DNA from: Actinopolymorpha alba DSM 45243
GTDB lineage: Bacteria > Actinomycetota > Actinomycetes > Propionibacteriales > Actinopolymorphaceae
Assembly (NCBI RefSeq): GCF_000373925.1
Contig: NZ_KB892823.1
Location: 1 to 64,000, forward strand
Direction of reading: 5' to 3'
Length of the DNA stretch: 64,000 bases
Shown here: positions 26,621 through 54,371 of the stretch, piece by piece
Numbering within the stretch: the first letter of the stretch is position 1
Layout of the letters: every line of letters starts with the position of its first letter
Position numbers and translations under genes: made by a program
The notes under the pieces: generated by a model
Told to the model about the DNA's origin: nothing
Seen by the model: the letters and a program-made list of their open reading frames with translations, nothing else
The model's database searches: none

Positions 26621-26700
26621 ATGAGCGAGCGCAGCGAGCGAATCGTTCAACACAGCGTCTTGGGCGCCTCATGCGCGCCCGGAGCGGAGCGAGGACGCGC
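26621..26700 (+). repeat. 80-bp start-codon-associated repeat, single copy
   Basis: The unit begins atgagcgagcgcagcgagcg and ends gagcgaggacgcgc. It is followed immediately by ATG 26701, the start of the hydrolase. The same 80-bp unit occurs three times in tandem at 42871-43110, again ending exactly at a gene's ATG. The first half resembles the start of the nuclease gene at 28890. A partial third motif, cgcatgagtgaaagcgcatg, lies just upstream at 26589-26608. Confidence 0.85.
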
Positions 26701-27603
26701 ATGAGCACGCCGAGGTCTCTGGAGATACCGGACGGTGTTGACAACGGCCGCCTCGTGACCTCCCGGGGGGAGTTCGCCACGCTGGAGGCGAGCCCGCCTG
26801 GTTGGGAACCCGCCGATGCCGATTCCGCGGTCCTTCTCCTGCCTGGATGGACGGGGAGCAAGGAGGACTTCCTCGCCCTCCTGCTCCCGCTCGCCGCGGC
26901 GGGGCGCCGGGTGGTCGCGGTCGACCAGCGGGGACAGTACGAAACGCCTGGGCCGGACGACGCGTCGGCGTACACGCTGGCGGAACTCGGCCTGGACGTG
27001 GTTGCCCTCGCCCGCTCCTTGAACGCCGGGTCGGTCCACCTGGTGGGGCATTCCTTCGGCGGCCTGGTCGCCCGCGCGGCGGTGCTCGCCGATCCGAAGG
27101 TCTTCACGTCCGCCACGCTGCTGTGCTCCGGACCGGCGGGCATGCCGGGCCCGCAGGCGGATCTGCTCCGCCTCATGGTCGAAGCGATTCCGAGCCAGGG
27201 GCTCGCCGCGGTCTATGCCGCCAAGCGTGAGCTCGAGCGCATGAACGGCCTCGCCGACCCGCCGGCCGAGATCGAGGCGTTCCTCGAACGCCGGTTCTGC
27301 GCCAACCACCCGGTCTCGCTCACCGAGATCACCCGCCAGTTGGTCGACGCACCTGACCAGGTCGATGAGCTCGCCGCGGTCGGGGTCTCCACCCTGGTGG
27401 CGTACGGCGCGAACGACGACGGATGGGCGATCGACCAGCAGCGGACAATGGCCGAGCGGCTCGGCGCACCTCGCGCGGTGATCTCGGAGGCCGGACACTC
27501 GCCGGCCGTCGACCAGCCCGAGGCGACGGCGCGTCTGCTGGAGGAGTTCTGGACCGCGGTGGTGAGCGGGCAGGCTCAGCCAGTCGGAAACAACGCGCCG
27601 TAG
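26701..27603 (+). CDS. Alpha/beta hydrolase
   Basis: This 300-aa serine hydrolase has the HG-like oxyanion region LLLPGWTGSKED, the nucleophile elbow VGHSFGG (GxSxG), an acidic residue in YGANDDGW, and the catalytic His in SEAGHSPAV. The fold is that of lactone/ester hydrolases and haloperoxidase-like enzymes; the substrate is unknown. ATG 26701 is the first codon after the 80-bp repeat, and the protein begins MSTPRSLEIPDG. A longer in-frame reading back to 26605 merely translates the repeat. Its 3' end overlaps the convergent small membrane protein gene by 28 bp. Confidence 0.9.
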   Translation: MSTPRSLEIPDGVDNGRLVTSRGEFATLEASPPGWEPADADSAVLLLPGWTGSKEDFLALLLPLAAAGRRVVAVDQRGQYETPGPDDASAYTLAELGLDVVALARSLNAGSVHLVGHSFGGLVARAAVLADPKVFTSATLLCSGPAGMPGPQADLLRLMVEAIPSQGLAAVYAAKRELERMNGLADPPAEIEAFLERRFCANHPVSLTEITRQLVDAPDQVDELAAVGVSTLVAYGANDDGWAIDQQRTMAERLGAPRAVISEAGHSPAVDQPEATARLLEEFWTAVVSGQAQPVGNNAP

Positions 27604-27936: not shown

Positions 27937-28890
27937 CTAGCCGATCGCCGCGTCAAGACCCTCCCAGGGTCGCCGGGTGGCGTACGCCGAGCGGCCTTCG
28001 GGGCAGTGCGCCGCGAAGTCGCACCATTGGCACTGCGGACCCGGCCGGGGCGGAAAGACACGGTCCAGGTCTGTGCGGGAGAGGCCTTCGGCATAGGCGT
28101 TCTCGGCGTCTGCCGCCTCCTCGCCCAGCTGGTCGGCGCGTTCGAGATGGCGCGCGAGTGACTCCTCGGTGTGCTCCCACGACACCACGGCACCGGTGGG
28201 CAGGTGATGCAACTCGACCCGGCGGCACCGCCGACGCAGAGTGCGGGCAGCGGCGGCGGCGTACACCGCCAGGGCGAGCGAGGTGCGCACGTCGGCAGTC
28301 GTGAGGGTGCGCCGGCCCGTCTTGTAGTCGACAACGACGAGTTCGACCGCGGGGACCTGCGCACCCGTCGAGCCCGGAGCGGGCACCACGGCCTCGTCGT
28401 CGTCTGGGGTGGGGAGCCGCTCGTCGATCCGGTCGATCCGTCCGGACAGCGCGAGGCGGGGTGTGGTCAGCGCGACCGTGCGCTCCACGCCGATGGGTTC
28501 GTCGCTCGGATCGAGGCTCTCGACGTAGGACTCCACCAGTTGCCGGGCGTGCGTGCGCCAGCGGGCGCTCTGGGCGTCGTCGCGGAAACCCTCGTTGATC
28601 CAGGCCCGCTCGAGGATCTGGCCGGCGGCTTCGGGCGTACGGCGTTCGACGGGGAGGCGCCACCACGAGGCCAGCGCCGTGTGCACCGCGGCACCCACGC
28701 TGTTGTGCGCCCACGGCGGGCCCTTCGGCAGTGAGGGCCGGTCGAGGTAGGTGAAGCGATAGCGACGCGGGCAGTCGAGCCATCCGAGCAACCTCGTCGG
28801 CGTCGCCCGGAACAACCTGCGCGGCATCGCCTCGAACCCGAGCTGCTGCGGTGCGCTGTGCTGAATGATTCGCTCGCGCTGCTCACTCAT
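27937..28890 (-). CDS. PD-(D/E)XK nuclease, RecB/Cas4-like, probable Fe-S cluster
   Basis: This 317-aa protein carries the PD-(D/E)XK core: LSGRIDRID (motif with the metal-binding Asp) and VVVDYKTGRR (the D-x-K strand). A cysteine in LDCPRRYRFTY and three more in CQWCDFAAHCPEG are spaced like the 4Fe-4S staple of AddB/Cas4 nucleases. Such proteins act on DNA ends, usually with a helicase, and RecB-like helicase genes may lie elsewhere. ATG 28890 opens MSEQRERIIQHSA, which is the translated first half of the 80-bp repeat family. MPRRLFRATPT at 28827 could be the ancestral start. It sits 61 bp downstream of the PHP gene. Confidence 0.88.
   Translation of the reverse strand: MSEQRERIIQHSAPQQLGFEAMPRRLFRATPTRLLGWLDCPRRYRFTYLDRPSLPKGPPWAHNSVGAAVHTALASWWRLPVERRTPEAAGQILERAWINEGFRDDAQSARWRTHARQLVESYVESLDPSDEPIGVERTVALTTPRLALSGRIDRIDERLPTPDDDEAVVPAPGSTGAQVPAVELVVVDYKTGRRTLTTADVRTSLALAVYAAAAARTLRRRCRRVELHHLPTGAVVSWEHTEESLARHLERADQLGEEAADAENAYAEGLSRTDLDRVFPPRPGPQCQWCDFAAHCPEGRSAYATRRPWEGLDAAIG
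28853..28890 (-). repeat. Half copy of the 80-bp repeat forming a gene start
   Basis: Read on the minus strand, atgagtgagcagcgcgagcg followed by aatcattcagcacagcg matches the first 37 bases of the 80-bp unit at about 31 positions. It supplies the start codon and first 13 residues of the nuclease. Confidence 0.65.
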
Positions 28891-41506: not shown

Positions 41507-41592
41507 AATGATCACGTATACGTGGTCATTACCTGCCTCGCATGGTGTCGATGCCATGCAAGGCAGGCAATGACCACGTATACGTGATCATT
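41507..41592. repeat. 86-bp palindromic repeat, best-preserved copy
   Basis: Arms at 41507-41530 and 41569-41592 are exact reverse complements of each other, each built as aatgatcacgt, ta, acgtggtcatt. The 38-bp spacer (41531-41568) is also nearly self-complementary (cctgcctcgcatgg with ccatgcaaggcagg). The whole element could fold as a cruciform. It lies between DUF1003 and mrp on the same strand, 56 bp before the mrp start. Confidence 0.9.
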
Positions 41593-41648
41593 TCCATTCG
41601 CCGCCCACGTCGCGAGACGCGGACCAGGTGGGCCGTAGCATCGTAGGT

Positions 41649-42806
41649 ATGCAGAAGCTTCCCTCGCAGGAGCAGATCCAGGCCGCCCTGGGCGGCGTCC
41701 TCGACCCCGAGATCCGCCGGCCGATCACCGAGCTCGGCATGGTCCGCTCGGCCGAGGTACGCCCTGACGGCACCGCGCTGGTCACCGTGCTCCTCACGGT
41801 CGCCGGATGCCCGATGCGGGAGACCCTCACGCGCGACGTCACCAAGGCCCTGACCGAGCTCCCCGGCGTCACCGCGGTCGACGTCACCCTCGACGTCATG
41901 TCTGCTGAGCAACGGCAGGAGCTCCAGGGACGGCTGCGCGGCGGCGGGCCGGCGAAGGAGAACCCCTTCACCAAGCCCGACTCCCTCACCCGCGTGTACG
42001 CCGTCGCCTCCGGTAAAGGCGGTGTCGGCAAGTCCTCGGTGACGGTCAACCTCGCGGTGGCGATGGCGAACCAGGGCCTGAAGGTCGGCCTCCTGGACGC
42101 CGACGTCTACGGCCACTCGGTGCCCGCGATGCTCGGGATCGCCGACGTGCGCCCGACCCGGGTCGAAGACATGATCATGCCGGTGCCGGCGTACGACGTG
42201 AAGGTCATGAGCATCGGCATGCTGAAGCCGGGCCGCCAGCACGTGGTCGCCTGGCGGGGCCCGATGCTCGACCGAGCGCTCGGGCAGATGCTCTCCGACG
42301 TCTACTGGGGCGACCTCGACGTCCTGCTCCTCGACCTGCCGCCGGGCACCGGCGACATGGCGATCTCGGTCGGCCAGCAACTCACGAACGCCGACGTGAT
42401 CGTGGTGACGACGCCCCAGGAGGCGGCCGCCGAGGTCGCCGAACGCGCGGGCACGATCGCGTCGATGCTGCACCAGAAGGTCACCGGCGTGGTCGAGAAC
42501 ATGTCGTGGCTGCCGTGCCCGCACTGTGGGTCGACGCACCGGATCGATGTGTTCGGCACCGGTGGAGGCACCCGGGTGGCCGCGACGCTGAGCGAGCGAC
42601 TGGGGTACGACGTACCCCTCCTCGGCGAGATCCCGCTCGACCCGCGGCTGCGTACCGGCGGCGACGCCGGCCTGCCGGTGGTGCTCGACGACCCGGGCGC
42701 ACCCGCGTCGGAGATTCTTCACGCACTGGCGAAGGAACTCGCCGATCGCCGGCCAAGCCTGGTGGGACGCTCACTCGGCATCACCCCCACCAACGGGCGC
42801 TCGTAG
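41649..42806 (+). CDS. mrp: Mrp/NBP35-type Fe-S cluster carrier ATPase
   Basis: This 385-aa protein has an N-terminal MIP18/DUF59 domain (residues 1-90, LDPEIRRPITELGMV and TVAGCPMRETL). A deviant Walker A P-loop GKGGVGKS is at 122-129, with DADVYGHSVP, and LPPGTGDM as switch. The CPHCG near residue 287 is the paired-cysteine site that bridges a 4Fe-4S cluster in the dimer. It carries clusters to apo-proteins in the cytosol. ATG 41649 gives MQKLPSQEQIQ; seven extra codons upstream are less likely. In Streptomyces and Mycobacterium mrp lies close to tatB and sigE, as I recall; here about 11 kb of sugar genes separate them. Confidence 0.94.
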   Translation: MQKLPSQEQIQAALGGVLDPEIRRPITELGMVRSAEVRPDGTALVTVLLTVAGCPMRETLTRDVTKALTELPGVTAVDVTLDVMSAEQRQELQGRLRGGGPAKENPFTKPDSLTRVYAVASGKGGVGKSSVTVNLAVAMANQGLKVGLLDADVYGHSVPAMLGIADVRPTRVEDMIMPVPAYDVKVMSIGMLKPGRQHVVAWRGPMLDRALGQMLSDVYWGDLDVLLLDLPPGTGDMAISVGQQLTNADVIVVTTPQEAAAEVAERAGTIASMLHQKVTGVVENMSWLPCPHCGSTHRIDVFGTGGGTRVAATLSERLGYDVPLLGEIPLDPRLRTGGDAGLPVVLDDPGAPASEILHALAKELADRRPSLVGRSLGITPTNGRS

Positions 42807-42870
42807 GGCGCGCTCACCGCGATCCGGCGACGCCCGGTATGGCTGGTGCCTGAGCGGGAACGCCCAAGGC

Positions 42871-43110
42871 ATGAGCGAGCGTAGCGAGCGAACCATCCAA
42901 CACAGCGCCATAAATGCCTCATGCGCGCCCGCAGCGAAGCGAGGACGCGCATGAGCAAGCGCAGCGAGCGAACCATCCAACACAGCGCCAAAAGTGCCTC
43001 ATGCGCGCCCGCAGCGAAGCGAGGACGCGCATGAGCAAGCGCAGCGAGCGAACCATCCAACACAGCGCCAAAAGTGCCTCATGCGCGCCCGCAGCGAAGC
43101 GAGGACGCGC
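42871..43110 (+). repeat. 80-bp start-codon-associated repeat, three tandem copies
   Basis: Units run 42871-42950, 42951-43030 and 43031-43110. Each begins atgagc(g/a)agcg and ends gcgaggacgcgc. The second and third are virtually identical, and the first differs at a few bases. The oxidoreductase ATG is the first base after the last unit (43111), and its second to fourth codons (agcaagcgc) still match the repeat. There are no spacers between units, so this is not CRISPR. The single copy at 26621-26700 has the same arrangement. Confidence 0.9.
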
Positions 43111-44457
43111 ATGAGCAAGCGCTTCGATGTGATCGTGATCGGGATGGGGCCGGGCGGGGAGACTGTCGCCCAGAGGCTGATGGCGGCGGGGAAATCTGTC
43201 GCCGTGGTGGAGAAGGAACTCATCGGCGGTGAATGCCCCTATTGGGCGTGTATGCCGTCCAAGGCTCTGCTTCGGCCGGTCGAGGCCCGGGCGGAGGCCT
43301 CGCACGCGGCGGGGATCAGCACTCCCGCAGTTGACTGGGCAAAGATCCGGAACTACCGCGACATCATTGTCGGCTACCACGACGACAGCAGCCGCGTCGA
43401 TGCCTACCGCTCGGACGGAGCGACCGTCATCAAGGGCGAGGGCCGGCTCGCCGGGCCCGGACAGGTCACGGTGAACGGCGAGCGGCTCACTGCCGACAAC
43501 ATCATTCTCGCCACCGGGTCGAGGCAGGCCTGGCCGTCCGTCGAGGGACTGGATCAGGTACCCGTGTGGACCAACCGGGAAGCCACCAGCCTGACCGAGA
43601 TACCTGAACGCGCGCTGCTCATCGGCGGCAGCGCGGTTGGCGTCGAACTCGGCACGTTCCTGTCCCGGATGGGCAGCCGGGTCACGATCGTTCAGCGAGG
43701 GCCGCGGCTGCTCGGCCGCGAGGTCCCCGAACTCAGTGAGCTCGTCGCCGCCCGCCTGGTCAAGGACGGCATCGACGTCCGTGTCCGATGTCAGGCGCGC
43801 GCGGTCCGACGCGAGGGCCAGGACACGGTGGTCGAGCTCGACGATGGGACCAGCGTGCGCGTCGATGTGGTCGTACTCGCTTCCGGCCGCGCCCTGAGGA
43901 CTGACCTTGGTCTGGAGTCTGTCGGGGTACGTACTGGAGCCCGCGGCGAGGTTCCCATCGACCAGCACTGTCGGGTCGCGGACGGGCTGTGGGCGGTCGG
44001 CGACATCACCGGCGTCGCGCTGTTCACCCATATGGCGTTGTACCAAGGCCGGGTCGTCGCGGACAACATTCTCGGCACACCACACGTCGCGAACTACACC
44101 GGAATACCCCGCGTCGTGTTCGCCGAACCCGAGATCGCCGCGGTCGGCCTCACGACCGACGCCGCCCGCCGGCAGGGAATCGACGTCGCCACCGCACAGA
44201 TCGACCTGCCCAGGTCGATTCGCCGGCCCGAGACGTACGAAACCGAACCGAGCGGCACGCTCGGGCTCATCGCCGACCGGTCGCGGAGGATCCTGGTCGG
44301 CGCCTGGGCCGTCTCGCCGCTGGCCGGGGAGTGGATCCACACCGGCGCCCTCGCCGTCCGCGCCCAGCTGCCCATCGACGTGCTGCTGGACGGGATCGCG
44401 CAGTTCCCCACCTACAACGAGGCCTACTACGAGGCCGCCGCCGCTCTCGGACTGTGA
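43111..44457 (+). CDS. FAD-dependent pyridine nucleotide-disulfide oxidoreductase
   Basis: This 448-aa enzyme of the dihydrolipoamide/mercuric reductase class has the FAD motif VIGMGPGG at the N-terminus. The redox-active pair lies in GGECPYWACMPSKA (CxxxxC). The NAD(P) motif is LLIGGSAVGVELG, and ADGLWAVGDITG marks the second FAD site. The C-terminal catalytic segment, usually HxHPTxxE, reads QFPTYNEAYYEA. The active-site His is therefore not apparent, which departs from classical disulfide reductases. The start codon is set by the end of the 80-bp repeat, and no separate ribosome site is clear beyond gagcgaggac inside it. The electron acceptor is unknown. Confidence 0.9.
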   Translation: MSKRFDVIVIGMGPGGETVAQRLMAAGKSVAVVEKELIGGECPYWACMPSKALLRPVEARAEASHAAGISTPAVDWAKIRNYRDIIVGYHDDSSRVDAYRSDGATVIKGEGRLAGPGQVTVNGERLTADNIILATGSRQAWPSVEGLDQVPVWTNREATSLTEIPERALLIGGSAVGVELGTFLSRMGSRVTIVQRGPRLLGREVPELSELVAARLVKDGIDVRVRCQARAVRREGQDTVVELDDGTSVRVDVVVLASGRALRTDLGLESVGVRTGARGEVPIDQHCRVADGLWAVGDITGVALFTHMALYQGRVVADNILGTPHVANYTGIPRVVFAEPEIAAVGLTTDAARRQGIDVATAQIDLPRSIRRPETYETEPSGTLGLIADRSRRILVGAWAVSPLAGEWIHTGALAVRAQLPIDVLLDGIAQFPTYNEAYYEAAAALGL

Positions 44458-44507
44458 GGCGATCAGGACGCTCCTCGGACCCGACCAAGCCCCAGGTGGC
44501 CATCTCG

Positions 44508-44555
44508 GAGTGTGAAGACTTTGGGGTGCAATAACCCCCCGAAGTCTTCACACTC
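44508..44555. terminator. Strong hairpin after flavin oxidoreductase
   Basis: gagtgtgaagactt (44508-44521) pairs perfectly with 44542-44555, and inner ggggt/acccc extends it. It lies about 50 bp after the oxidoreductase stop and is one of two hairpins in the 308-bp convergent gap to the GH65 gene, which holds no other gene. Confidence 0.72.
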
Positions 44556-44592
44556 TTGCCGAAATTTGCCTTATAGATGGGGCTGCGCTTCG

Positions 44593-44670
44593 GCGAAGTT
44601 GATCAACGGTCCGCAAAACGGGCACTCCCTGCCGTGGGTGTCCGAATTCGGGACCGTTGATCAACTTCGC
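44593..44670. terminator. Long perfect hairpin before GH65 3' end
   Basis: gcgaagttgatcaacggtcc (44593-44612) and its exact reverse complement (44651-44670) enclose a 38-nt loop that can pair further. The motif agttgatca is shared with the hairpin at 15260-15327. It is placed to terminate the minus-strand GH65 transcript. Confidence 0.65.
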
Positions 44671-44765
44671 TCCGGCAACTACAGAAGCCGTCTCCCCATA
44701 GGGAATGGCTCCGCTGCCGTGCCCAGCAAGAGCCGGGCGTCCCGACCTCAGCGATCACCCATGCG

Positions 44766-47141
44766 TTACCTCGTGGTGGCGGGGCGCCGGCGGGCGGGTG
44801 CTCGACCCGGCGGCTGGGAGGGCGGCTCGCGACGTGGTAGCGGCGGAGTCGGCAGGCTGATCTCTTCGCCCGGACCGATGGTGACCGGCTGGCCGTGATG
44901 GGCGAACTCCAGCGGCTTGCCGCGGAACAGCTGGTAGGTCGCGTGGTCCGCGCTGATCTTGACCCTGATCTGCCTTCCCGCGAAGCGCATCCGAAACGCC
45001 AGACCGGCCAGTTGCGGAGGGAGCCGCGGCGCGAAGCTGAGTTGTCCGTGGTGGTCGCGCATCCCACCGAGGCCGGCGACGGTGGCCGCCCAGGCGCCGG
45101 CGAGTGAGGCGATGTGGACGCCGCTCGCGACGTTGTGCTGGACGTCGTGGAGGTCGGCGAAGGCCGCTTCACCGAGGTAGTCGTAGGCGAGTTCAAGGTG
45201 TCCGACTTCGGCGGCGAGCACCGCCTGCGTCGCGGCCGAGAGTGAGGAGTCGCGGACCGTCCGCGCCTCGTAGTACGCGAAGTTGCGAGCCTTCTGCTCC
45301 GGCGTGAACGCATCACCGGCGAGGTGCATCGCGAGCACCAGGTCCGCCTGCTTGACCACCTGCTTGCGGTAGAGATCGACGTACGGGAAGTGCAGCAGCA
45401 GGGGATAGCTGTCCGCCGGCGTAGCTTCGAAGTCCCAGTCCGCGTAACAGGTGAAGTCGTCGCACTGCGGATGAACCCCCAGCGCCTCGTCGTACGGTAT
45501 GGCCATCTTGTCGGCGGCCTTGCGCCACCGGCGAATCTCCGACTCCTCAACGCCGAGCCTGCTCGCCACCTCCGGATGCCGCTCGCACACCGCGACCGCC
45601 TCCCGCAGATTCCGGCGCGCCATCAGGTTGGTGTAGACGTTGTTGTTCTTGACCGCGGTGTACTCATCGGGACCGGTGACGCCGTCGATCCGGAAGCCGG
45701 TTTGCCGGTCGTGGTGTCCCAGCGACGCCCAGAGCCGAGCGGTCTCGACCAGGAGTTCTGCTCCGAAGTCCACCTCGAACGCGGTGTCGCCGGTCGCGTC
45801 GAGGTAGCGGGCGGTGGCGTCCGCGACGTCGGCGTTGATGTGGAACGCCGCGGTCCCGGCCGGCCAGTAGCCAGAGCACTCGTCACCGTCAATCGTCCGC
45901 CACGGAAAAGCAGCGCCGGCCTGGCCGAGTTCGCGCGCCCGTACGCGTGCCTTCGGCAGCGTCGAATGCCGCCACCGCAGGACGTCGCGCGCGGCCTGCG
46001 GCGTGGTGTACGTGAGGACGGGCAGGACGAAGCTCTCGGTGTCCCAGAAGGCGTGCCCGTCGTATCCGGGGCCGGTCAGCCCTTTGGCCGGAATCGCCCG
46101 GGACTCCCCGCGTGCGCCCGCCTGCAGGACGTGGAAAAGCGCGAACCGCAACGCCTGCTGGAGTTCTGGGTCGCCGGCCACCTCGATGTCGGCGGCTTCC
46201 CAGAAGTCGTCTAGGTAGTGGCGCTGGTCGTGCTGGAGCCCCTGCCAGCCGATCTGCAGCGCTCCGTCCAGAGCGGCGTGAACCTGCGCCTGTAACGCTG
46301 GCGTGGAACGGTGGCTCGACCAGCCGTACGCCAGGTACTTCGTGATCCGCAGGCGTCGGCCCGCCGGGACCATGGCGGTGATGGTGAGCCGTGCGCTGTC
46401 CCCGGCGGCTTCGATTCTGGTCCGCAGTTTGTCCGGTGCGTGCACGTGGTGGTCCATCGCGGCGGCCATCCGGAGCCCGGAACGACGCGTGTGATGTCCC
46501 AGAACCGCGCGATAGTGAACCGAGGACGCCGCGTCCGGCACCAGAGGGGCTTCGAGCGCGGCCGCTGCGCGGGGGTCCGCGGACGTCTCGGTCGGTTCGT
46601 TGGCCAGCAGTTCGGACTGGACGACGAGCTGCAACGGCTCGTCCAGTGCTTCGACCTGGTAGTGGATCGCGGCGATCGCGCGCTGGGTGAACGACACCAG
46701 CCGTTCGGACTCGATCCGCACGCGACTGCCGGTCGGCGACTCCCAGTCCGTGCGGCGCCGTAGTGTGCCCGCGCGGAAGTCGATTGTGCGTTCATGCGCC
46801 AGTGTGGAGCCATAGCGCATATCGAGCGGCTCGTCCTCCACCAGCAGCCGGATGATCTTGCCGTCGGTCACGTTGACGATCGTCTGACCGTCCTCCGGGT
46901 CGCCGTATCCGGTCTCGGCGTACGGCAGTGGCCGGCGTTCGAAGAAGCCGTTGAGATACGTGCCGGGCAGGCCGACCGGTTCACCTTCGTCCAAGGAACC
47001 GCGTAGACCGATGTGGCCGTTGGCGAGCGCGAACGTCGACTCGTGGCGCTTGAGCGCGTCGGTGTCCAAGCCATGCCAGCGCAGCCCCCACGGCATCACG
47101 TCGTACCCGGGTGCACCGGGGTCAGGCACGTGGGCTGTCAT
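44766..47141 (-). CDS. Glycoside hydrolase family 65 disaccharide phosphorylase
   Basis: This 791-aa protein has the GH65 layout: an N-terminal beta-sandwich (HESTFALANGHIGLRGSLDEG), a linker, an (alpha/alpha)6 barrel, and C-terminal strands. The general acid is Glu493 in VTGPDEYTAVKNNN, and FWDTESFVLP and WPAGTAAFHINADV are further active-site strings. Members phosphorolyse maltose, trehalose or kojibiose to beta-glucose 1-phosphate. The acceptor loop cannot be typed by eye. The beta-phosphoglucomutase gene upstream overlaps its start by 4 nt, confirming a phosphorylase rather than a hydrolase role. The Pro/Arg-rich tail is unusual. Confidence 0.92.
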   Translation of the reverse strand: MTAHVPDPGAPGYDVMPWGLRWHGLDTDALKRHESTFALANGHIGLRGSLDEGEPVGLPGTYLNGFFERRPLPYAETGYGDPEDGQTIVNVTDGKIIRLLVEDEPLDMRYGSTLAHERTIDFRAGTLRRRTDWESPTGSRVRIESERLVSFTQRAIAAIHYQVEALDEPLQLVVQSELLANEPTETSADPRAAAALEAPLVPDAASSVHYRAVLGHHTRRSGLRMAAAMDHHVHAPDKLRTRIEAAGDSARLTITAMVPAGRRLRITKYLAYGWSSHRSTPALQAQVHAALDGALQIGWQGLQHDQRHYLDDFWEAADIEVAGDPELQQALRFALFHVLQAGARGESRAIPAKGLTGPGYDGHAFWDTESFVLPVLTYTTPQAARDVLRWRHSTLPKARVRARELGQAGAAFPWRTIDGDECSGYWPAGTAAFHINADVADATARYLDATGDTAFEVDFGAELLVETARLWASLGHHDRQTGFRIDGVTGPDEYTAVKNNNVYTNLMARRNLREAVAVCERHPEVASRLGVEESEIRRWRKAADKMAIPYDEALGVHPQCDDFTCYADWDFEATPADSYPLLLHFPYVDLYRKQVVKQADLVLAMHLAGDAFTPEQKARNFAYYEARTVRDSSLSAATQAVLAAEVGHLELAYDYLGEAAFADLHDVQHNVASGVHIASLAGAWAATVAGLGGMRDHHGQLSFAPRLPPQLAGLAFRMRFAGRQIRVKISADHATYQLFRGKPLEFAHHGQPVTIGPGEEISLPTPPLPRREPPSQPPGRAPARRRPATTR

Positions 47142-47890
47142 GGCTGGGCCACCAGTTCCGCGAGATCGGACACCACGACGTCGGCGCCGTGGGCCCGCAG
47201 GGCGTCGGCGTGCGGTCCTTCCCGGAGCTCCTGGTCGGTACGGTCGACGCCGACCACCAGGCCGAAGCCGCCCGCGTGGCCCGCCTCCACTCCCGCGACC
47301 GCGTCCTCGAAGACCGCCGCCGCGGACGGTTCGACACCGAGTGCCTGGGCACCGGCCAGGTACGAATCCGGCGCCGGTTTGCCGCGCAGGTGCCGCTTCG
47401 TGATCACCTGCCCGTCGATCCTGGCCTGGACGAACTGGTCGAGATGCGTCGCCTCCAGCACGGCGGCGCCGTTGTTGGACGAGGTGACCACCGCGATCCG
47501 CAGCCCGGCCTCCTGGGCCGCCCGCAGATAGCGCACAGAGCCCGGATAAGGCTGCACGCCACGCTCGGCGATGAGGGAACGCAATGCCGCGTTCTTCCGG
47601 TTGCCGACGCCATTGACCGTCATCGCCGTCGGAGGATCGTCGGCGGCTCCTTCCGGCAACGTGATCTGCCGCGAGGCGAGAAAATCCCGAACCCCGTCGG
47701 CCCGCGGGCGCCCGTCCACATGGTCGAGGTAGTCCTGCTCAGTAAATGGCGCGAATCCCGGCCCTTCACGCTCTTGGAGAAAAGCATCGAAGGTCGCCTT
47801 CCAGGCCGCCATATGCAGCTTGGCGGTATTTGTCAGAACCCCGTCGAGATCGAACAGGCAGGCGGTAATACCCTTCGTTAATCCGAGCAC
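47138..47890 (-). CDS. pgmB: Beta-phosphoglucomutase (HAD superfamily)
   Basis: This 250-aa HAD phosphatase-fold mutase has the nucleophile/acid pair in FDLDGVLTNTA, VTSSNNGA (motif II), the Lys in RGKPAPDSYLAGA, and the metal-binding FEDAVAGVEAG. It would convert beta-glucose 1-phosphate from the GH65 enzyme to glucose 6-phosphate. The cap region contains HVDGRPRADGV, as in beta-PGMs. The start is GTG 47890; its stop overlaps the GH65 ATG by 4 nt, so the two genes form an operon. It is divergent from transketolase, and the 184-bp gap should carry promoters for both directions. Confidence 0.92.
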   Translation of the reverse strand: MLGLTKGITACLFDLDGVLTNTAKLHMAAWKATFDAFLQEREGPGFAPFTEQDYLDHVDGRPRADGVRDFLASRQITLPEGAADDPPTAMTVNGVGNRKNAALRSLIAERGVQPYPGSVRYLRAAQEAGLRIAVVTSSNNGAAVLEATHLDQFVQARIDGQVITKRHLRGKPAPDSYLAGAQALGVEPSAAAVFEDAVAGVEAGHAGGFGLVVGVDRTDQELREGPHADALRAHGADVVVSDLAELVAQP

Positions 47891-48074
47891 AACTTCGACG
47901 CTACTCGCCTGGGCGGTTGCGCCGGACGGTTGTACACCGGACCCGGGCAGGTAGGCCCTCCCCGATCAGGGACGTGCGACCCATGCCTTCGTCGGTCCCT
48001 TTGTAACAGGCTGTTTTGTGCAGGCGATAAGGCGACAAGTGGAAGCGAGACCCAAGGCACTGGGCCAGGCAACG

Positions 48075-50186
48075 ATGACGGACTTCGACGCACTGTCGGT
48101 CAGCACCATCCGCGGGCTGTGTATGGACGCGGTGCAGAGGGCAGAGTCCGGACATCCTGGAACGCCGATGGGAATCGCACCTGTCGCTTATACGCTCTGG
48201 CAGAGGTTCCTGCGATTTGATCCGCGGGACCCGATCTGGCCGAATCGCGATCGTTTCGTTCTTTCCGAGGGGCATGCCTCGACGCTGCTCTGGTCACTTC
48301 TGCACCTGGCCGGAGTGCGGGCCGTCGACCCCGACTACGAAATACTCGGCACTCCCGCCGTCACGCTGAATGATCTCAAGACGTTCCGCTCGCTTGATTC
48401 GCATTGCCCCGGCCATCCCGAATATCGGCTGACCAGCGGCGTGGAGGCCACCACGGGACCACTTGGCCAGGGTGTTGCCATGTCAGTCGGGATGGCGATG
48501 GCCAGCCAGTGGCTCGCCGCCCGCTACAACCAAGACGGCCCTTCTCAGGGGTCAGGGGGTCGTCCCCCGGGCAACAAGCAGTTCTCGTTGTTCGACTTCG
48601 ACGTATACGCAATCGCCGGCGACGGCTGCATGATGGAGGGCATCTCCTCTGAAGCCGCATCGCTCGCGGGTTACCAGAGGTTGTCCAACCTGTGTTGGAT
48701 CTACGACTCCAACCGGGTGACGATCGAGGGCCATACCGACATCACCTTCACCGAGGATGTCGCCGAACGATTTCTCGCGTACGGCTGGAACGTCACGACG
48801 GTCGCGGACGCGAACGATCTCGAGATGGTCGCGCGTGCCTTGCAATCGTTCAGGGCCGAGCACAGCAGGCCGACGCTGATTCTCGTACACAGCCATATCG
48901 GCTACGGCTCGCCGTTGGAGGATTCACCGAAGGCACATGGCGCACCCCTGGGCGCGGAGGCAGTTCGCGCGACCAAGCGAACGCTCGGCCTACCAGAAGA
49001 CGTCGAATTCTGCATCCCTGACGGCCTGTACGACTGGTTCGAGAGCGGCATCGGCGCTCGAGGCGCGACAGCCCGGGCCGCCTGGGAGGCGAAGTTCAAG
49101 GAGTACGCGAACTCCTTCCCCGAGCTGGCCGACGAGATCGAGCGAATGCAGCGCCGCGAGGTGCCGCCGGGTTGGGACGCCGACCTTCCGGTGTTCTCTC
49201 CTGATCCGAAAGGCGTCGCGACCCGCACCTCGTCCGGTGAAGTGCTGAACGCCGTCGCCCGGAACCTGCCGTGGCTCGTCGGCGGGTCGGCTGATCTCAC
49301 CCCGTCGACGAAGACCTGGCTGCAGGTCGACGGTGGGGCGGCGTTCGCGCCCGAGAACCGTGGCGCGCGCAACGTCCACTTCGGGGTTCGCGAACACGCG
49401 ACGGCCGCGATCGCGAACGGCCTGGCGGTGTCGAAGATCCGGCCGTTCTGGTCGGGATTCCTGATCTTTTCCGACTACGCGCGTGCCGCGATCCGGATGT
49501 CGGCGTTGATGGAGGTGCCCGTCATCCACATCTTCACCCACGACTCGATCGGTGTCGGCGAGGACGGTCCGACCCATCAGCCGGTTGAGCAGCTCGCGTC
49601 GCTGCGCGCGATGCCTGGACTCCTGGTATTCCGGCCGGCCGACGCCAACGAGGTGGTCGAGGCCTGGCGGGTGATCGGTTCCCTGCGCCGGGAGCCGGCG
49701 GCGCTCGTGCTGACTCGGCAGGCCGTTCCGACGTTCGACCGTACGCAGTTTCACAGTGCCGAGGGCCTCGCGCGCGGTGCGTACGTCCTCGCAGATCCAC
49801 CGGATGGCGGTCAACCGGACGTACTGTTGCTCGCCACCGGATCGGAGGTGGCACTCGCCCTCTCGGCACGGGAGGAGCTCGCCCGTGACGGCATCGCCGC
49901 GCGGGTGGTGAGCATGCCGTGCTGGGAGCTCTTCGACCGGCAGCCGGCCGAGTATCGCGATGCCGTCCTTCCACCGGACGTCACCGCCCGCGTCGCGATC
50001 GAGCAGGCGTCGGACCTCGGCTGGGACCGCTACGTCGGTCCCGGTGGCGCCGTCATCGGCATGCACACCTTCGGCGCCTCCGCACCGCTGAAGCAGCTGC
50101 TCGGAAAGTTCGGCTTCACCCCCGACCGGGTGACCGAAACCGCCCGCGCCGTGGTGGAAATGGCCCAAGCGGATCGAAGGGGCTGA
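48075..50186 (+). CDS. tkt: Transketolase
   Basis: This 703-aa thiamine-diphosphate enzyme moves two-carbon units between ketoses and aldoses. It shows [27 protein letters not shown], the ThDP/Mg motif [16 protein letters not shown], and the pyrimidine-side [13 protein letters not shown] with [15 protein letters not shown]. At residues about 156-169 there is an additional 14-residue stretch ([14 protein letters not shown]) where transketolases normally run straight from RxN to the LFDF strand; its DNA contains a palindrome. ATG 48075 is chosen over GTG 48018 since the extension is not conserved-looking. It is followed at 2 bp by transaldolase: one operon. Confidence 0.95.
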
Positions 50187-50188
50187 CC

Positions 50189-51325
50189 ATGATGACCACA
50201 GCCGCCACTCGACAACTCCACGAGCGCGGCCAGAGCCTGTGGCTGGACAACATCACCCGCCAGATGCTCGACACCGGACAGATCCAGCACTACATCAACG
50301 AGTACTCCATCACCGGACTCACGTCCAATCCGTCGATCTTCGACAAGGCGATCGAGTCCGGCTACTACGACGACGCGATCCGCGCCGCGGCAACTCCGAC
50401 CCGCACGCATGAGGATCTCTTCTTCGAGCTGGCGATCGAGGATCTGCGGCGGGCCGCGGATCTCTTCCTGCCCATCCACGAACGCACCGATCGCGTGGAC
50501 GGCTGGGTGTCGCTGGAGGTCTCGCCACTACTCGCGTACGACACCGATGCGACGATCCAGGCCGCGAAGACCTTGCACGCCAGGGCCGGCCGGCCCAACC
50601 TGCTCATCAAGATCCCCGGCACGAAGGAAGGCCTTCGGGCCGTCACCGAGTGCGTCGCGGCCGGCATCCCTGTCAACGTCACCTTGCTCTTCTCCGCCGA
50701 CCACTACCGCGCCGCCGCCAGCGCCTACGTCGACGGTGTGGAGCGCCGGGTCGAGCAGGGCCGCGATCCCGCGGTCGGCTCGGTGGCGTCGGTGTTCATG
50801 TCCCGCTGGGACGTGGCGGTCGCCGACCAGGTGTCCGCTCAGAGTCCTCTCCAACCCCAGGCGGGCTCCGCCCGCCTGTCCCCGCCCCCATCCCTGAAAG
50901 ACCAGCTCGGCCTGGCGGTCGGGCTGGACACCTATCGGGCGTACCGGCGGTTCCTCGACTCCGACGCCATGCAGCGGCTGGACAACTACGGCGCCCGGCC
51001 GCAACGGCTGTTGTGGGCGAGTACCCGTACCAAGGACCCGGCGGCGTCGGACACGCTCTACGTGCATGGGTTGGCCGCTCCGTTCACGATCGACACGATG
51101 CCGGACACCACGCTCGAGGCGTTCCACGACCACGGCAAGGTGGGCGAGCCGATGCCGGCCGATGGCGGGGCGTGCGACGTGATGCTCAGTCACTTCGCCG
51201 ATGCGGGCGTCGATGTTGTCGCGCTCGCCGAAAGGCTTCAGCGAGAGGGCGCGCAGGGGTTCGTCGCATCGTGGAACGACCTCCTGGCGCGGATCTCTGC
51301 GCAACGCGCCGCGCTTTCCTGCTGA
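50189..51325 (+). CDS. tal: Transaldolase
   Basis: This 378-aa enzyme begins QLHERGQSLWLDNITRQML. It has GLTSNPSIFDKAI, the Schiff-base Lys in NLLIKIPGTKEGL, and NVTLLFSADHY plus FMSRWD, all standard for TalB-like actinobacterial transaldolases. Between VADQ and GLAVGLDTY there is an extra Pro/Ser-rich segment (SPLQPQAGSARLSPPPS) with a DNA palindrome at 50858-50878. ATG 50189 follows the tkt stop by 2 bp; a second ATG is the next codon. It regenerates fructose 6-phosphate and erythrose 4-phosphate from sedoheptulose 7-phosphate, the step after transketolase. Confidence 0.95.
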   Translation: MMTTAATRQLHERGQSLWLDNITRQMLDTGQIQHYINEYSITGLTSNPSIFDKAIESGYYDDAIRAAATPTRTHEDLFFELAIEDLRRAADLFLPIHERTDRVDGWVSLEVSPLLAYDTDATIQAAKTLHARAGRPNLLIKIPGTKEGLRAVTECVAAGIPVNVTLLFSADHYRAAASAYVDGVERRVEQGRDPAVGSVASVFMSRWDVAVADQVSAQSPLQPQAGSARLSPPPSLKDQLGLAVGLDTYRAYRRFLDSDAMQRLDNYGARPQRLLWASTRTKDPAASDTLYVHGLAAPFTIDTMPDTTLEAFHDHGKVGEPMPADGGACDVMLSHFADAGVDVVALAERLQREGAQGFVASWNDLLARISAQRAALSC

Positions 51326-51365
51326 CCGAAAGGACCGAGCGGACCAGAATTTCGGGAGGACGACG

Positions 51366-52436
51366 ATGGCCACCGACACACCCATGCAACTCGGCATGAT
51401 CGGGCTCGGCCGGATGGGCGGCAACCTGGTCCGGCGGCTGCTGCGGGACGGCCACCGGTGCGTCGTGTATGACCGCAGCGAGCGCGCCGTCCAGGAGCTC
51501 GCCAGCGAAGGCGCGGTCGGGACGGCCACCCTCCAGGAGTTCGTGGCCGCGCTGGACAAGCCGCGGGCGATCTGGCTGATGGTGCCGGCCGGGGTCGTGC
51601 AGTCCATGCTCGACCAGTTGGTCGGGCTGCTCGAACCCGGCGACATCGTGGTCGACGGCGGCAACTCTTACTACCGCGACGACATCACCCGGGCGAAACA
51701 GCTTGCTGAGCAGCAGATCCACTACGTCGACTGCGGGACCTCCGGCGGTGTCTGGGGCCTCGAGCGTGGCTACTGCCTGATGATCGGTGGCAGCTCCCAG
51801 GCCGTCCAACGCCTGGATCCGGTCTTCGCCACCATCGCCCCCGGGGCGGGCAGCGCGGTTCGCACCCCCGGACGCACCCGGAACGGAACCGCCCCCGAGG
51901 GCTACCTGCACTGCGGCCCCAATGGTGCCGGCCACTTCGTCAAGATGGTCCACAACGGGGTGGAGTACGGCATGATGGCGTCGATCGCCGAAGGGCTGTC
52001 CATCCTCCAGCACGCCAACATCGGTAAGAAGGATCGCCCCGTCGACGCGGAAACCGCGCCACTGCGCGACCCCGAGGCCTATCAGTACGACATCGACGTC
52101 GCCGAGGTTGCCGAGGTCTGGCGGCGCGGCTCGGTCATCGGTTCGTGGCTCGTCGACCTGGTCTCCGACGCGCTCGCCCGCTCACCCCAGCTCGAAGGCT
52201 TCCGCGGCAAGGTTTCCGACTCCGGCGAAGGCCGGTGGACGGTGATCGCCGCGATCGAGGAGAGCGTGCCGGCCGCGGCCATCACGGCTGCCCTCAACGA
52301 ACGCTTCGAGTCGCGCGGACTCGGCCACTTCGCCGACGCGGTGATGTCCGCGATGCGGAGCGAGTTCGGCGGCCATGCCGAGAAGGGCGCAGGGCAACAG
52401 AAGGGCGGGGAAGTTCATGGGACAGGAACGCGTTGA
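51366..52436 (+). CDS. gnd: 6-phosphogluconate dehydrogenase, decarboxylating, short form
   Basis: This 356-aa protein belongs to the short 6PGDH group (GntZ/YqeC-like), compared with about 470 aa for the classical enzyme. It has the Rossmann loop [24 protein letters not shown], the substrate motif [14 protein letters not shown], and catalytic Lys/Asn in [16 protein letters not shown]. The strand-2 acidic residue (VVYDRSE) may favour NAD over NADP, although the next Arg keeps NADP possible. ATG 51366 has ggaggacgac before it. It begins 40 bp after transaldolase and its 3' end overlaps the G6PDH start by 20 nt. Confidence 0.92.
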
Positions 52437-53790
52437 CGCGATGGTCATCTTCGGCGCGACCGGAGATCTGGCCAAGCTGGAGACCTACCCGGCCCTGGTC
52501 AGCCTGGTCGAGCGGGGCGCCCTGGACGTTCCCATCATCGGGGTCGGGCACCGCGAGTGGCAGGCAGAGCAGCTCCGCGAGTACGCCACGGCGTCGCTGA
52601 CCCGCAACGGCATCGATCCGCGGAGCCGACCGGCCGAGCGGATGCTGAGCCTGCTCGACTACGTGAGCGGCGACCTCAACGACGACAGCACCTACCAGGC
52701 GATCTCGGACCGGCTCGGCGCCCGCAGGCGCACCCTTTTCTACCTGGAGGTGCCAGCCCAGCTGTTCGAACGCATCACTCACGGGATCGCGGCGGTCGGG
52801 CGCGAGCGCGATGCGCGGATCATGGTGGAGAAGCCGTTTGGCACCGACCTCGCAAGCGCGCAGGAACTCAGCGCCACCATGCACAAGGTGTTTCCCGAGG
52901 ACGCGATCTTCCGCGTCGACCACTGGCTCGCGCTCGAATCGCTCGAGAACATTCTGTACGTACGCTTCGCCAACGCCATCCTCGAGCCATTACTCAACCA
53001 CCGGTACGTCGAGAGCATCGAGATCACGATGGCGGAGGACTTCGGCGTATCCGACCGGGGACGGTTCTACGATCAGACCGGCGCGATCCGCGACGTGTTA
53101 CAGAACCACCTGCTCCAACTGCTGGTCAGCGTCATCGCCGACGAGCCGAGCCACGGCGTGCGGACCTGGCGTCACCAGCGGACCCGCGCGATGCAGCAGC
53201 TACGGCCACTAGGACCGGGTGATGTGGTCCGTGGCCAGTATGCGGGCTACCGCCAGGTCGATGGTGTGGCGCCGGACTCGACGGTGGAGACGTTCGTCGG
53301 CGTTCGACTGACCTCCGACGCGCCGCGATGGTCCGGCGTACCCATCTACGTTCGGGCCGGCAAGTGCCTGCCGGTGACCGCGACCGAGGTCACCATCAGA
53401 TTCCGCCCACCAGACCGGAACGTCTGCGGCATCGAGAACTTCCGCGGAGTGAACGAACTACGGTTCCGTGTACGCCCGGAAACGGCGGTGGCCCTCACTC
53501 TGGCCGGCAAGAAACCCGGCATTGCCGCCCAATCCCAGACCGAGGAGCTCAACTTCGCTCAGCAACCAGGACTGGACCCGCGCCCTTACGACCGGCTGAT
53601 CGGTGCCGCCCTCGAGGGTGATGAGATCTACTTCGCCCGTGAGGAGTCTGTGGAAGCCGCCTGGAGGATCATCGACCCGATCCTCGGCGATGTCGTTCCG
53701 ATCTCGGCGTACCAACCGGGCAGCTGGGGCTCTTCGGAAGCGGACAGCCTCCTGCCCGGCGGCGAGACCTGGCACAACCCGATCGGATAG
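52417..53790 (+). CDS. zwf: Divergent glucose-6-phosphate dehydrogenase
   Basis: This 457-aa protein has the G6PDH scaffold: [19 protein letters not shown] (normally GASGDLAxRK), VEKPFGTDL with the conserved Lys, [19 protein letters not shown], and IYVRAGKCL. The substrate signature usually written RIDHYLGKE reads [10 protein letters not shown]. The Asp-His pair remains, but the Tyr and phosphate-binding Lys (Tyr179 and Lys182 in the Leuconostoc enzyme) are Trp and Leu. It belongs to a divergent clade, and sugar-phosphate use should be tested. ATG 52417 lies within gnd. It ends 15 bp before the convergent tatB stop with no hairpin between them. Confidence 0.88.
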
Positions 53791-53804: not shown

Positions 53805-54371
53805 TCAGGTCGCCTCGAGGTCGAAGCGCGGCCGGTCAGAGCGGCGCTCCGTCGCGGAATCGGCGTCCGAGTCGTCGTCGCCGGACTTCGCCTCGGCGTC
53901 CTCAGGTGATGTGACCTTGTCGGGCGCGCGATCGGTCTCGCCGGCATCGCCGGCATCGCCGTCCGCGGTCGCGTCCTTACCGTTGACCTGACTCGTGCCG
54001 TTGGCGGACCCGTTCGCTGATCCGTTGGCTGAGCCGTTGACCGCCTTCGTGGAGTCCTTGTCGCCGTCGAGGTCGACGCGGAGGTCATCACGCAGGTCGA
54101 GGTCGCGATCGATGCGCAGGTCGTCCTCATCGATGCCGTCGAGCACGTGCTTGCGGATGAAGGACCGGGGGTTGAGGTCGCGGATGTCGAGGTCCTCGAA
54201 CTCCGGTCCCAGCTCGCGCGTCAGCTCTCGCCGCGCGTTGGTGGCCATGGACCGCACCTGACGCAGTCCGCGGGCGGCCTGCCGCGCGATGTCAGGTAAC
54301 CGGTCAGGCCCGAAGATGAACAGTGCGGCAATCGCCAGCACGAGAAACTCCGGGACACCGATGTCGAACAC
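53805..54371 (-). CDS. tatB: Twin-arginine translocase subunit TatB
   Basis: This 188-aa protein has a single N-terminal membrane helix in MFDIGVPEFLVLAIAALFIFGPDRLP with the conserved Glu near residue 8 and the FGPDRLP hinge. An amphipathic helix (ARQAARGLRQVRSMATNARREL) follows. The C-terminal 100 residues are highly acidic and include three GSAN repeats. It recruits folded Tat substrates in the membrane; the RR-signal proteins at 31199 and elsewhere would be clients. The tail is longer and more acidic than typical. It is in the conserved SigE neighbourhood but separated from htrA by the oppositely oriented SnoaL-like gene. Confidence 0.92.
   Translation of the reverse strand: MFDIGVPEFLVLAIAALFIFGPDRLPDIARQAARGLRQVRSMATNARRELTRELGPEFEDLDIRDLNPRSFIRKHVLDGIDEDDLRIDRDLDLRDDLRVDLDGDKDSTKAVNGSANGSANGSANGTSQVNGKDATADGDAGDAGETDRAPDKVTSPEDAEAKSGDDDSDADSATERRSDRPRFDLEAT

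Follow-up and report, generated by a model that had tools for sequence, protein, structure and literature searches.

A composite, lineage-specific sugar-phosphate locus between mrp and tatB in Actinopolymorpha alba, with an altered glucose-6-phosphate dehydrogenase homologue

How did a GH65 family phosphorylase gene and its partner pgmB come to stand head to head with a pentose phosphate operon between mrp and tatB, and do the two halves work together? These questions are raised by a block at positions 43111 to 53790 of the 64,000-nucleotide stretch of Actinopolymorpha alba DSM 45243 analysed here (contig NZ_KB892823.1, positions 1 to 64,000; hereafter the window). We read the block as a composite, lineage-specific locus that would lead trehalose into the pentose phosphate pathway, and whose glucose-6-phosphate dehydrogenase (G6PDH) homologue, the product of zwf, would act on an altered substrate; we give this reading a probability of about 0.6. 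The enzyme families are ordinary. It is their assembly that is unusual and confined to one lineage, and one member has a changed substrate site.

The left flank, mrp (41628 to 42806, plus strand), encodes an Fe-S carrier ATPase (Pfam ParA, 289.5 bits) that is 88-89% identical in five relatives from the genus (G001 to G005), and the right flank is tatB (53805 to 54371, minus strand; Pfam TatA_B_E). In all five relatives the two genes lie side by side and convergent, separated by 80, 60, 115, 12 and 66 bp in G001 to G005 respectively, and here they lie 10,998 bp apart. Of the two other family members, G006 has a gap of 9 bp and G007, from another genus, one of 2,838 bp with mrp and tatB on one strand. 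The empty site is therefore present in 5/5 genus members and 1/2 other family members, and it is clear because the surrounding genes mgtE, DUF1003, htrA, mucB and rseA keep one order throughout G001 to G005. An earlier note on this DNA had judged from Streptomyces and Mycobacterium gene orders that the segment looks inserted; the measured spacing, 9-115 bp in six of seven relatives against 10,998 bp here, bears this out, and the 10,998 bp is a lineage-specific insertion. Composition hardly marks it, since the GC content of 0.675, against 0.690 for the window, is equally low in 4 of 107 overlapping eleven-kb windows.

So sharp an insertion in one lineage is what a classical mobile genomic island brought by an integrase would leave. 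We rejected a mobile element, as no tRNA gene was found in a search of the 64-kb window, no recombinase or integrase occurs among the block genes (open reading frame (ORF) list and Pfam scan), and no flanking direct repeats were seen between 41500 and 45500 or, for the core of the repeat cassette described below, across the window. The long direct repeat that does lie near the block is this cassette array, on one side only. With the near-ordinary composition and the genus-level affinity of GH65, tkt and zwf set out below, such an island is highly improbable.

Within the block, families and gene order agree with the calls of the earlier note, which hold at family level in the ORF list and in Pfam and NCBIfam scans. 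The minus strand carries the GH65 phosphorylase gene (44766 to 47141; Pfam GH65 N, m and C) and pgmB (47138 to 47890), for a HAD enzyme of the beta-phosphoglucomutase family (TIGR02009, 168.6 bits, cut-off 153.35). Head to head with this pair, the plus strand carries the pentose phosphate operon: tkt for transketolase (48075 to 50186; TIGR00232, 768.7 bits, cut-off 682.25, scanned from 48078), tal for transaldolase (50189 to 51325; TIGR00876, 261.6 bits, cut-off 233.75, scanned from 50183), gndS for a short NAD-type 6-phosphogluconate dehydrogenase (51366 to 52436; TIGR00872, 380.3 bits, above the cut-off of 297.2, scanned from 51429) and zwf (52417 to 53790), whose product belongs to what we term the 'DHW' clade. 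Starts were corrected to about 48075 for tkt (read from the frame), 50189 for tal and 51366 for gndS. The zwf start lies within the end of gndS, giving a 20-bp overlap, and 14 bp separate the zwf stop from that of tatB. The block contains no gene for phosphoglucose isomerase (pgi) or gluconolactonase (ORF list and Pfam scan), as had been stated.

Where do the pieces come from? With the exception of an oxidoreductase gene at the left edge, the insert is a composite of pieces resident in the genus and not a recognisable mobile element. In 5/5 genus relatives pgmB-GH65 occupies a conserved locus elsewhere, between a large transporter-like gene and one for an ATPase of about 920 residues (both named from reading the sequence). 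The window GH65 is sister to these copies in the tree (96/94), on a longer branch, and about 71% identical to them, while they are 82-95% identical to each other. In A. alba itself the ATPase flank of this home locus starts contig C107 (position 435), and its counterpart on the transporter side is found at C2:82-85 kb with other genes beside it and no pgmB or GH65 there. The home locus has either been broken up or lost one edge in an assembly gap.

The pentose phosphate genes have their counterparts in G003, where tkt, tal and gndS (80, 77 and 85% identical; 80-82% is the range for tkt) form one operon at 3.41 Mb (L157:10742-16290). The window tkt is sister to that of G003 (100/99), and at E 1e-200 it has matches in 2 of 57 genomes, its own and G003. 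Directly behind gndS stands zwf here and pgl in G003. As a side observation, the G003 operon reads on from tkt-tal-gndS into this pgl (6-phosphogluconolactonase) and has an rpiA-like (ribose-5-phosphate isomerase) gene opposite, a fuller operon than that of the window; both genes were named by reading the sequence and not by family scan. Counterparts of zwf lie at loci of their own in G002 (78% identical) and G003 (72%), and in the tree the window gene is sister to that of G002 and then to that of G003 (both forks 99). A foreign origin of the whole block was rejected, as GH65, tkt and zwf are all affiliated with the genus in the trees; the oxidoreductase lies outside that tracing. We also noted a second GH65 gene in G003 (L056:8457-10814), 62% identical to the window's and with no pgmB match beside it.

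The member with the changed substrate site is the zwf product. We aligned 100 homologues, leaving out tblastn matches that span fewer than 250 residues; 80 of the loci are the best 80 of 581 confirmed, some on contigs of 3-10 kb. Fourteen of the 100 form one group: the window's own, that of G002, two of G003, that of G053 and nine from named actinobacteria or actinobacterial metagenome-assembled genomes (MAGs), the named hosts including Kitasatospora, Streptomyces populi, Kribbella steppae and Geodermatophilus. The G053 sequence groups with that of Kribbella steppae. The group is a single clade with support 100 and a stem of 0.88 changes per site, counting the partial row L071; with the clade labelled without that row, the tree count gives 2 changes. 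Where the other homologues have DHYLGKE, the clade has DHWLGLD or a near variant (loci L063-L071 and L043-L046). The lysine of this motif, found in 86/86 others, is leucine in 13 and phenylalanine in one of the 14, and the preceding aromatic residue, tyrosine or phenylalanine in the others, is tryptophan in 14/14.

In human G6PD His201, Tyr202 and Lys205 bind the substrate phosphate, and Asp200 and His263 do the chemistry (PMC11448927). The window protein has Trp170 in place of the tyrosine and Leu173 in place of the lysine, so that two of the three phosphate ligands are lost. The remaining ligand, His169, is kept, as are Asp168 and His231, the equivalents of the catalytic dyad, and Lys139 and Lys316. 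Further conserved columns have changed in the clade, among them Trp to Leu193, Met to Ala241 and Glu to Asp392. With two of three phosphate ligands gone, the protein is unlikely to function as a normal G6PDH. The earlier note had called it a divergent G6PDH; homology, domains and dyad stand, but G6PDH activity should not be assumed.

It is possible that the enzyme is still a G6PDH that binds phosphate through other residues, the island then being a plain duplicate of the oxidative pentose phosphate route. The kept residues listed above would fit this, as would the overlap with gndS, and the protein matches both Pfam domains (G6PD_N, 138.1 bits; G6PD_C, 250.3 bits) and misses the TIGR00871 G6PDH equivalog by only 1.7 bits (398.9 against a cut-off of 400.6). 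The G003 homologue, moreover, adjoins pgi, which points to a phosphorylated hexose. Set against this are the lysine kept in every homologue outside the clade and in 0/14 within it, the long clade stem with several further changes at conserved columns, and the company that the clade keeps, as gndS is found at none of its 13 other loci. We regard this alternative as a strong competitor with somewhat less than even odds. A catalytically idle or regulatory paralogue would also explain lost phosphate ligands, and a canonical zwf is present in the same genome (C1:80530-81981). That explanation is improbable: the Asp-His dyad is kept here, the His201 equivalent is kept in 13/14 members, and no internal stop was found in the matched reading frames of the 14.

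The neighbours of the clade have changed along with the substrate site. At its 13 other loci gndS, tkt and tal are absent (0/13), while gndS stands at 54 of 72 other zwf loci; pgi occurs at 1/13 against 18/72. A GH15 gene is found instead at 7/13 clade loci against 4/72, a GMC oxidoreductase gene at 5/13 against 3/72 (at four loci, L063, L066, L067 and L068, directly upstream within 90 bp) and gluconokinase at 2/13 against 0/72. The cytochrome bd genes cydA and cydB each occur at 4/13. Fisher tests give 2.8e-7 for gndS, 8.6e-5 for GH15 and 0.02 for gluconokinase, taking loci as independent though the clade shares descent, and two of the clade loci (L067 and L071) come from one MAG. The gluconokinase of L070 is divergently adjacent and above the TIGR01313 cut-off; that of L063 is a 45% partial match. 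The GH15 protein at the Kribbella clade locus has a trehalase-like N domain, and among NCBIfam models trehalases match it best, though below cut-off. The clade has thus parted from gnd and come to stand beside enzymes that would release glucose. Only in the window was a clade zwf seen together with gnd, and there too the phosphorylase would free glucose.

We hypothesised that the clade is a distinct Zwf-fold dehydrogenase without a 6-phosphate site, which would oxidise free glucose to gluconolactone. The glucose would come from trehalose through GH65 or through the trehalase-like GH15 enzymes, and gluconokinase would return the carbon as 6-phosphogluconate. In this complete form the proposal is tentative and on balance doubtful. 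If true, both glucose halves of trehalose would enter the pentose phosphate pathway. A clade that lacks a phosphate ligand present in all other homologues sampled, although the catalytic dyad is intact in the window protein, and that lies beside glucose-releasing enzymes and not beside gnd, offers a directly testable case of misannotation and perhaps a new sugar dehydrogenase.

Which disaccharide would feed the block? The GH65 protein aligns with maltose phosphorylase (1h54) across the region of the catalytic glutamate and the KQ and His segments. We take these two segments to bind phosphate and the glutamate to be catalytic. A triad in loop 3 separates the specificities, being HNE in maltose, TPK in kojibiose and SAY in trehalose phosphorylase, and a tested trehalose phosphorylase from Thermobispora bispora carries the six-position motif TRIGPP (PMC8537180). 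In alignments to 1h54 and 3wiq the window protein has SGY at this place (loop 3 reads SGYWPAGT), two of three residues matching SAY. The pattern S[GAS]Y is found in 29/29 related GH65 loci, which hold 23 distinct genes (six held twice): SGY in 18, SAY in 3 (G142, G225 and G282) and SSY in 2. Positions 392, 394 and 402 of the published motif correspond to Arg, Ile and Gly in the window protein by the 3wiq alignment, the other three positions of the motif falling at or near alignment gaps. These readings make trehalose the most likely substrate. We rejected maltose and kojibiose, as loop 3 matches neither HNE nor TPK. The activity would be that of a GH65 trehalose phosphorylase, which we take to be EC 2.4.1.64. 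The earlier note had proposed a phosphorylase for a glucose disaccharide, with pgmB, facing a pentose phosphate operon; the arrangement stands, and the disaccharide can be narrowed to trehalose as the most likely candidate.

Taken together, these comparisons show how the locus was put together and suggest what it may do. Separate modules of the genus, namely pgmB-GH65, tkt-tal-gnd and the special zwf, were brought into the gap between the convergent mrp and tatB genes, where they are joined by an oxidoreductase gene preceded by its three leader cassettes. The phosphorylase would cleave trehalose by phosphorolysis to give glucose and beta-glucose 1-phosphate, which PgmB would convert to glucose 6-phosphate without ATP. 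The dedicated tkt-tal-gnd set could then oxidise and recycle the carbon with NAD(P)H as output, while the zwf product would oxidise a sugar that carries no phosphate or carries it in another way, most simply the glucose half of trehalose.

The combination of the two halves recurs only rarely. Among genomes of the class, gndS has a match in 112 of 394 and GH65 in 97 of 197. Both occur in 28, the genomes common to the two match tables, and they lie within 20 kb of each other in two of these, A. alba itself and G225; many assemblies are fragmented, and linkage over contig breaks would be missed. The genome G282, outside the 197, also has the linkage. In G225 and G282, both of family f22, tkt, gndS, a canonical zwf, pgmB and GH65 share one orientation, with an opposing gene call between zwf and pgmB in G282. 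In the trees their GH65 falls in a different clade, and they carry a zwf of the ordinary type. Because these lineages differ from those of the window, the association of GH65 with pentose phosphate genes probably arose twice. We examined 40 of 114 gndS match rows (top scorers and a hand-picked spread, from 39 genomes), and full-length GH65 with pgmB was present at two, those of G225 and G282; weaker cases are a weak pgmB match at L224 and a GH65 fragment at the edge of locus L234. Neither GH65 nor pgmB was found at any of 85 other zwf loci, some of them on short contigs. The suggestion that GH65-pgmB-tkt-tal-gnd-zwf travel together as a general rule therefore fails, with linkage in 2/28 genomes of which one is this genome. 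The two operons are indeed unlinked in most genomes, which the earlier note had named as grounds for giving up the island in general, but two genomes from another family also carry a tkt-gnd-zwf-pgmB-GH65 run.

Unrelated modules could simply have become adjacent through the shuffling of a large actinobacterial genome, with no joint function. This neutral rearrangement would account for the pieces lying apart in those genus relatives that have them, for the two linked genomes among 28 and for the 85 zwf loci with neither GH65 nor pgmB. It accounts less well for the comparable run in another family, built from different GH65 and zwf lineages, or for the fact that every piece except the oxidoreductase is a sugar or sugar-phosphate enzyme. 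We consider it unlikely, though still to be reckoned with; the runs in G225 and G282 argue for a functional coupling of the two halves.

Several points nonetheless weigh against the composite trehalose-to-pentose-phosphate reading, in addition to the pgi beside the same-clade zwf of G003. Given how rarely GH65 and gndS are linked, the modules of the block could have come together by accident. The GH65 protein falls below the NF010380 cut-off (429.3 against 838 bits), and PgmB, which reaches its subfamily model TIGR02009, falls below the beta-phosphoglucomutase equivalog TIGR01990 (95.8 bits, cut-off 189.4). The divergence of the window GH65 may mark an old paralogue instead of a relocated orthologue, and, as the old GH65 locus reaches the end of contig C107, a second pgmB-GH65 copy may lie in the assembly gap. 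With these points counted, we still favour a composite locus with a joint role. The island itself illustrates clearly how dispersed metabolic modules can be collected at a single site within a genus, and another family shows a similar case.

The left edge of the block is formed by the gene for an FAD/NAD(P)-dependent disulfide-type oxidoreductase (43111 to 44457, plus strand; Pfam Pyr_redox_2, 194.6 bits). In an alignment to 2eq6 the disulfide motif CPYWAC is kept, and FPT stands where 2eq6 has the C-terminal HPT; no NCBIfam cut-off was exceeded among the 25 of 57 families listed. A relative with 38-39% identity lies within 5 kb of gndS at 12 of the 40 gndS loci, all in family f21, and within 1 kb at eight of these (L206, L209, L210, L215, L216, L217, L223 and L226). 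Two more matches near gndS, at 31% identity, are in family f7. The relatives at L206-L226 are of the pyridine nucleotide-disulfide oxidoreductase type. Between the convergent oxidoreductase and GH65 genes, a repeat search revealed a 33-nt inverted repeat (44593 to 44670), from its position a probable two-way terminator. Outside the block, a near-perfect (95%) 39-nt inverted repeat with an 8-nt loop (41507-41592) lies between DUF1003 and mrp and may be a terminator or an operator.

Upstream of the oxidoreductase gene are three copies of an 80-bp repeat (at 42869, 42949 and 43029), each at least 94% identical to the first. They had been proposed to mark the left boundary of the island. We find that the genome holds 50 matches to this dispersed family, against none with a reversed-pattern control, and that its members sit at gene starts, so we rejected the repeats as an insertion border. 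The unit is a 27-codon mini-ORF, MSxRSERxxQxSxxxASCAPxAKRGRA, and the period of 80 equals 84 - 4 because the TGA of each unit overlaps the ATG of the next (ATGA). Read in this way the window array comprises three tandem leader cassettes (42871 to 43110, plus strand), the last overlapping the oxidoreductase start; the array heads that gene and is unrelated to the island as a unit.

A survey of the surroundings of the genome matches together with a scan of the window (loci L235-L254 and L256-L269) gave 37 arrays of 1-4 tandem units in this genome. The final stop codon of 29 arrays shares bases with the ATG of the ORF that follows (28 of at least 100 aa, one cut by a contig end), and in the other eight the unit and an ORF of 246-448 aa form one continuous frame. 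Altogether, 36/37 arrays either stop precisely where an ORF of 100 aa or more begins or continue into such an ORF; the exception is the one cut by the contig end. One of the 28 following ORFs (L260) looks non-coding by third-position GC. For rough comparison, of the 265 ATGA sites found in the window, 58 begin a coding-like ORF that reaches 100 aa. These positions would suggest that the cassettes couple translation to the gene behind them. The window holds a further copy at the start of a 300-aa ORF (26621 to 26704, plus strand), and a 317-aa ORF (27937 to 28890, minus strand) starts with a diverged cassette fused in frame, with 4 substitutions in the 22-base core.

The cassette core, allowing up to 2 substitutions, had no match in 2.8 Mb of sequence from other loci, a small part of which belongs to this genome. 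Only about 0.36 Mb comes from the family, where 1-2 arrays would be expected at the density seen here, so the cassette may also occur beyond this genome. The array had no match in plasmids or phages at E 0.001, and a 30-base cassette pattern had none in viral contigs. Literature searched on the peptide start MSERSER, coupled leaders and dispersed repeats held no description of the cassette, judging by titles and the starts of abstracts. A hairpin with the start codon in its 3' arm folds better than shuffled sequences (z -2.54). We do not claim it as conserved, since a double change occurs in 1/11 pairs (3 distinct units, one array) and that same pair is broken in 7/28 distinct units. The cassettes are best treated as a lead of their own, mini-ORFs of 80 nt that coincide exactly with the starts of about 36 genes in one genome.

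How does the locus compare with known systems? Its GH65 resembles the trehalose phosphorylases of this family that are paired with beta-phosphoglucomutase, in the shared N, catalytic and C domains, the near-SAY triad and the adjacent pgmB. It differs in that the pair sits beside a pentose phosphate operon and in that the triad matches at two of three residues. The zwf product shares with Zwf (4lgv) and human G6PD both Pfam domains, the Asp-His dyad and the EKPxG lysine, and departs from human G6PD in the phosphate site, where Tyr202 is replaced by Trp and Lys205 by Leu. Clusters of tkt, tal, gnd and zwf are known from our searches in other phyla, namely in Geobacteraceae, Rokuibacteriota, Bradyrhizobium and Phycisphaerales (L076, L077, L091, L095, L113 and L115), with the same four enzymes within 10 kb and a gnd of the short NAD type; unlike in the window, their zwf keeps the phosphate-binding lysine and no GH65 or pgmB lies nearby. 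The closest parallels are the runs in G225 and G282, which place the same five enzyme families side by side and differ from the window in having no tal match, a canonical zwf, all five genes on one strand and a GH65 of another lineage.

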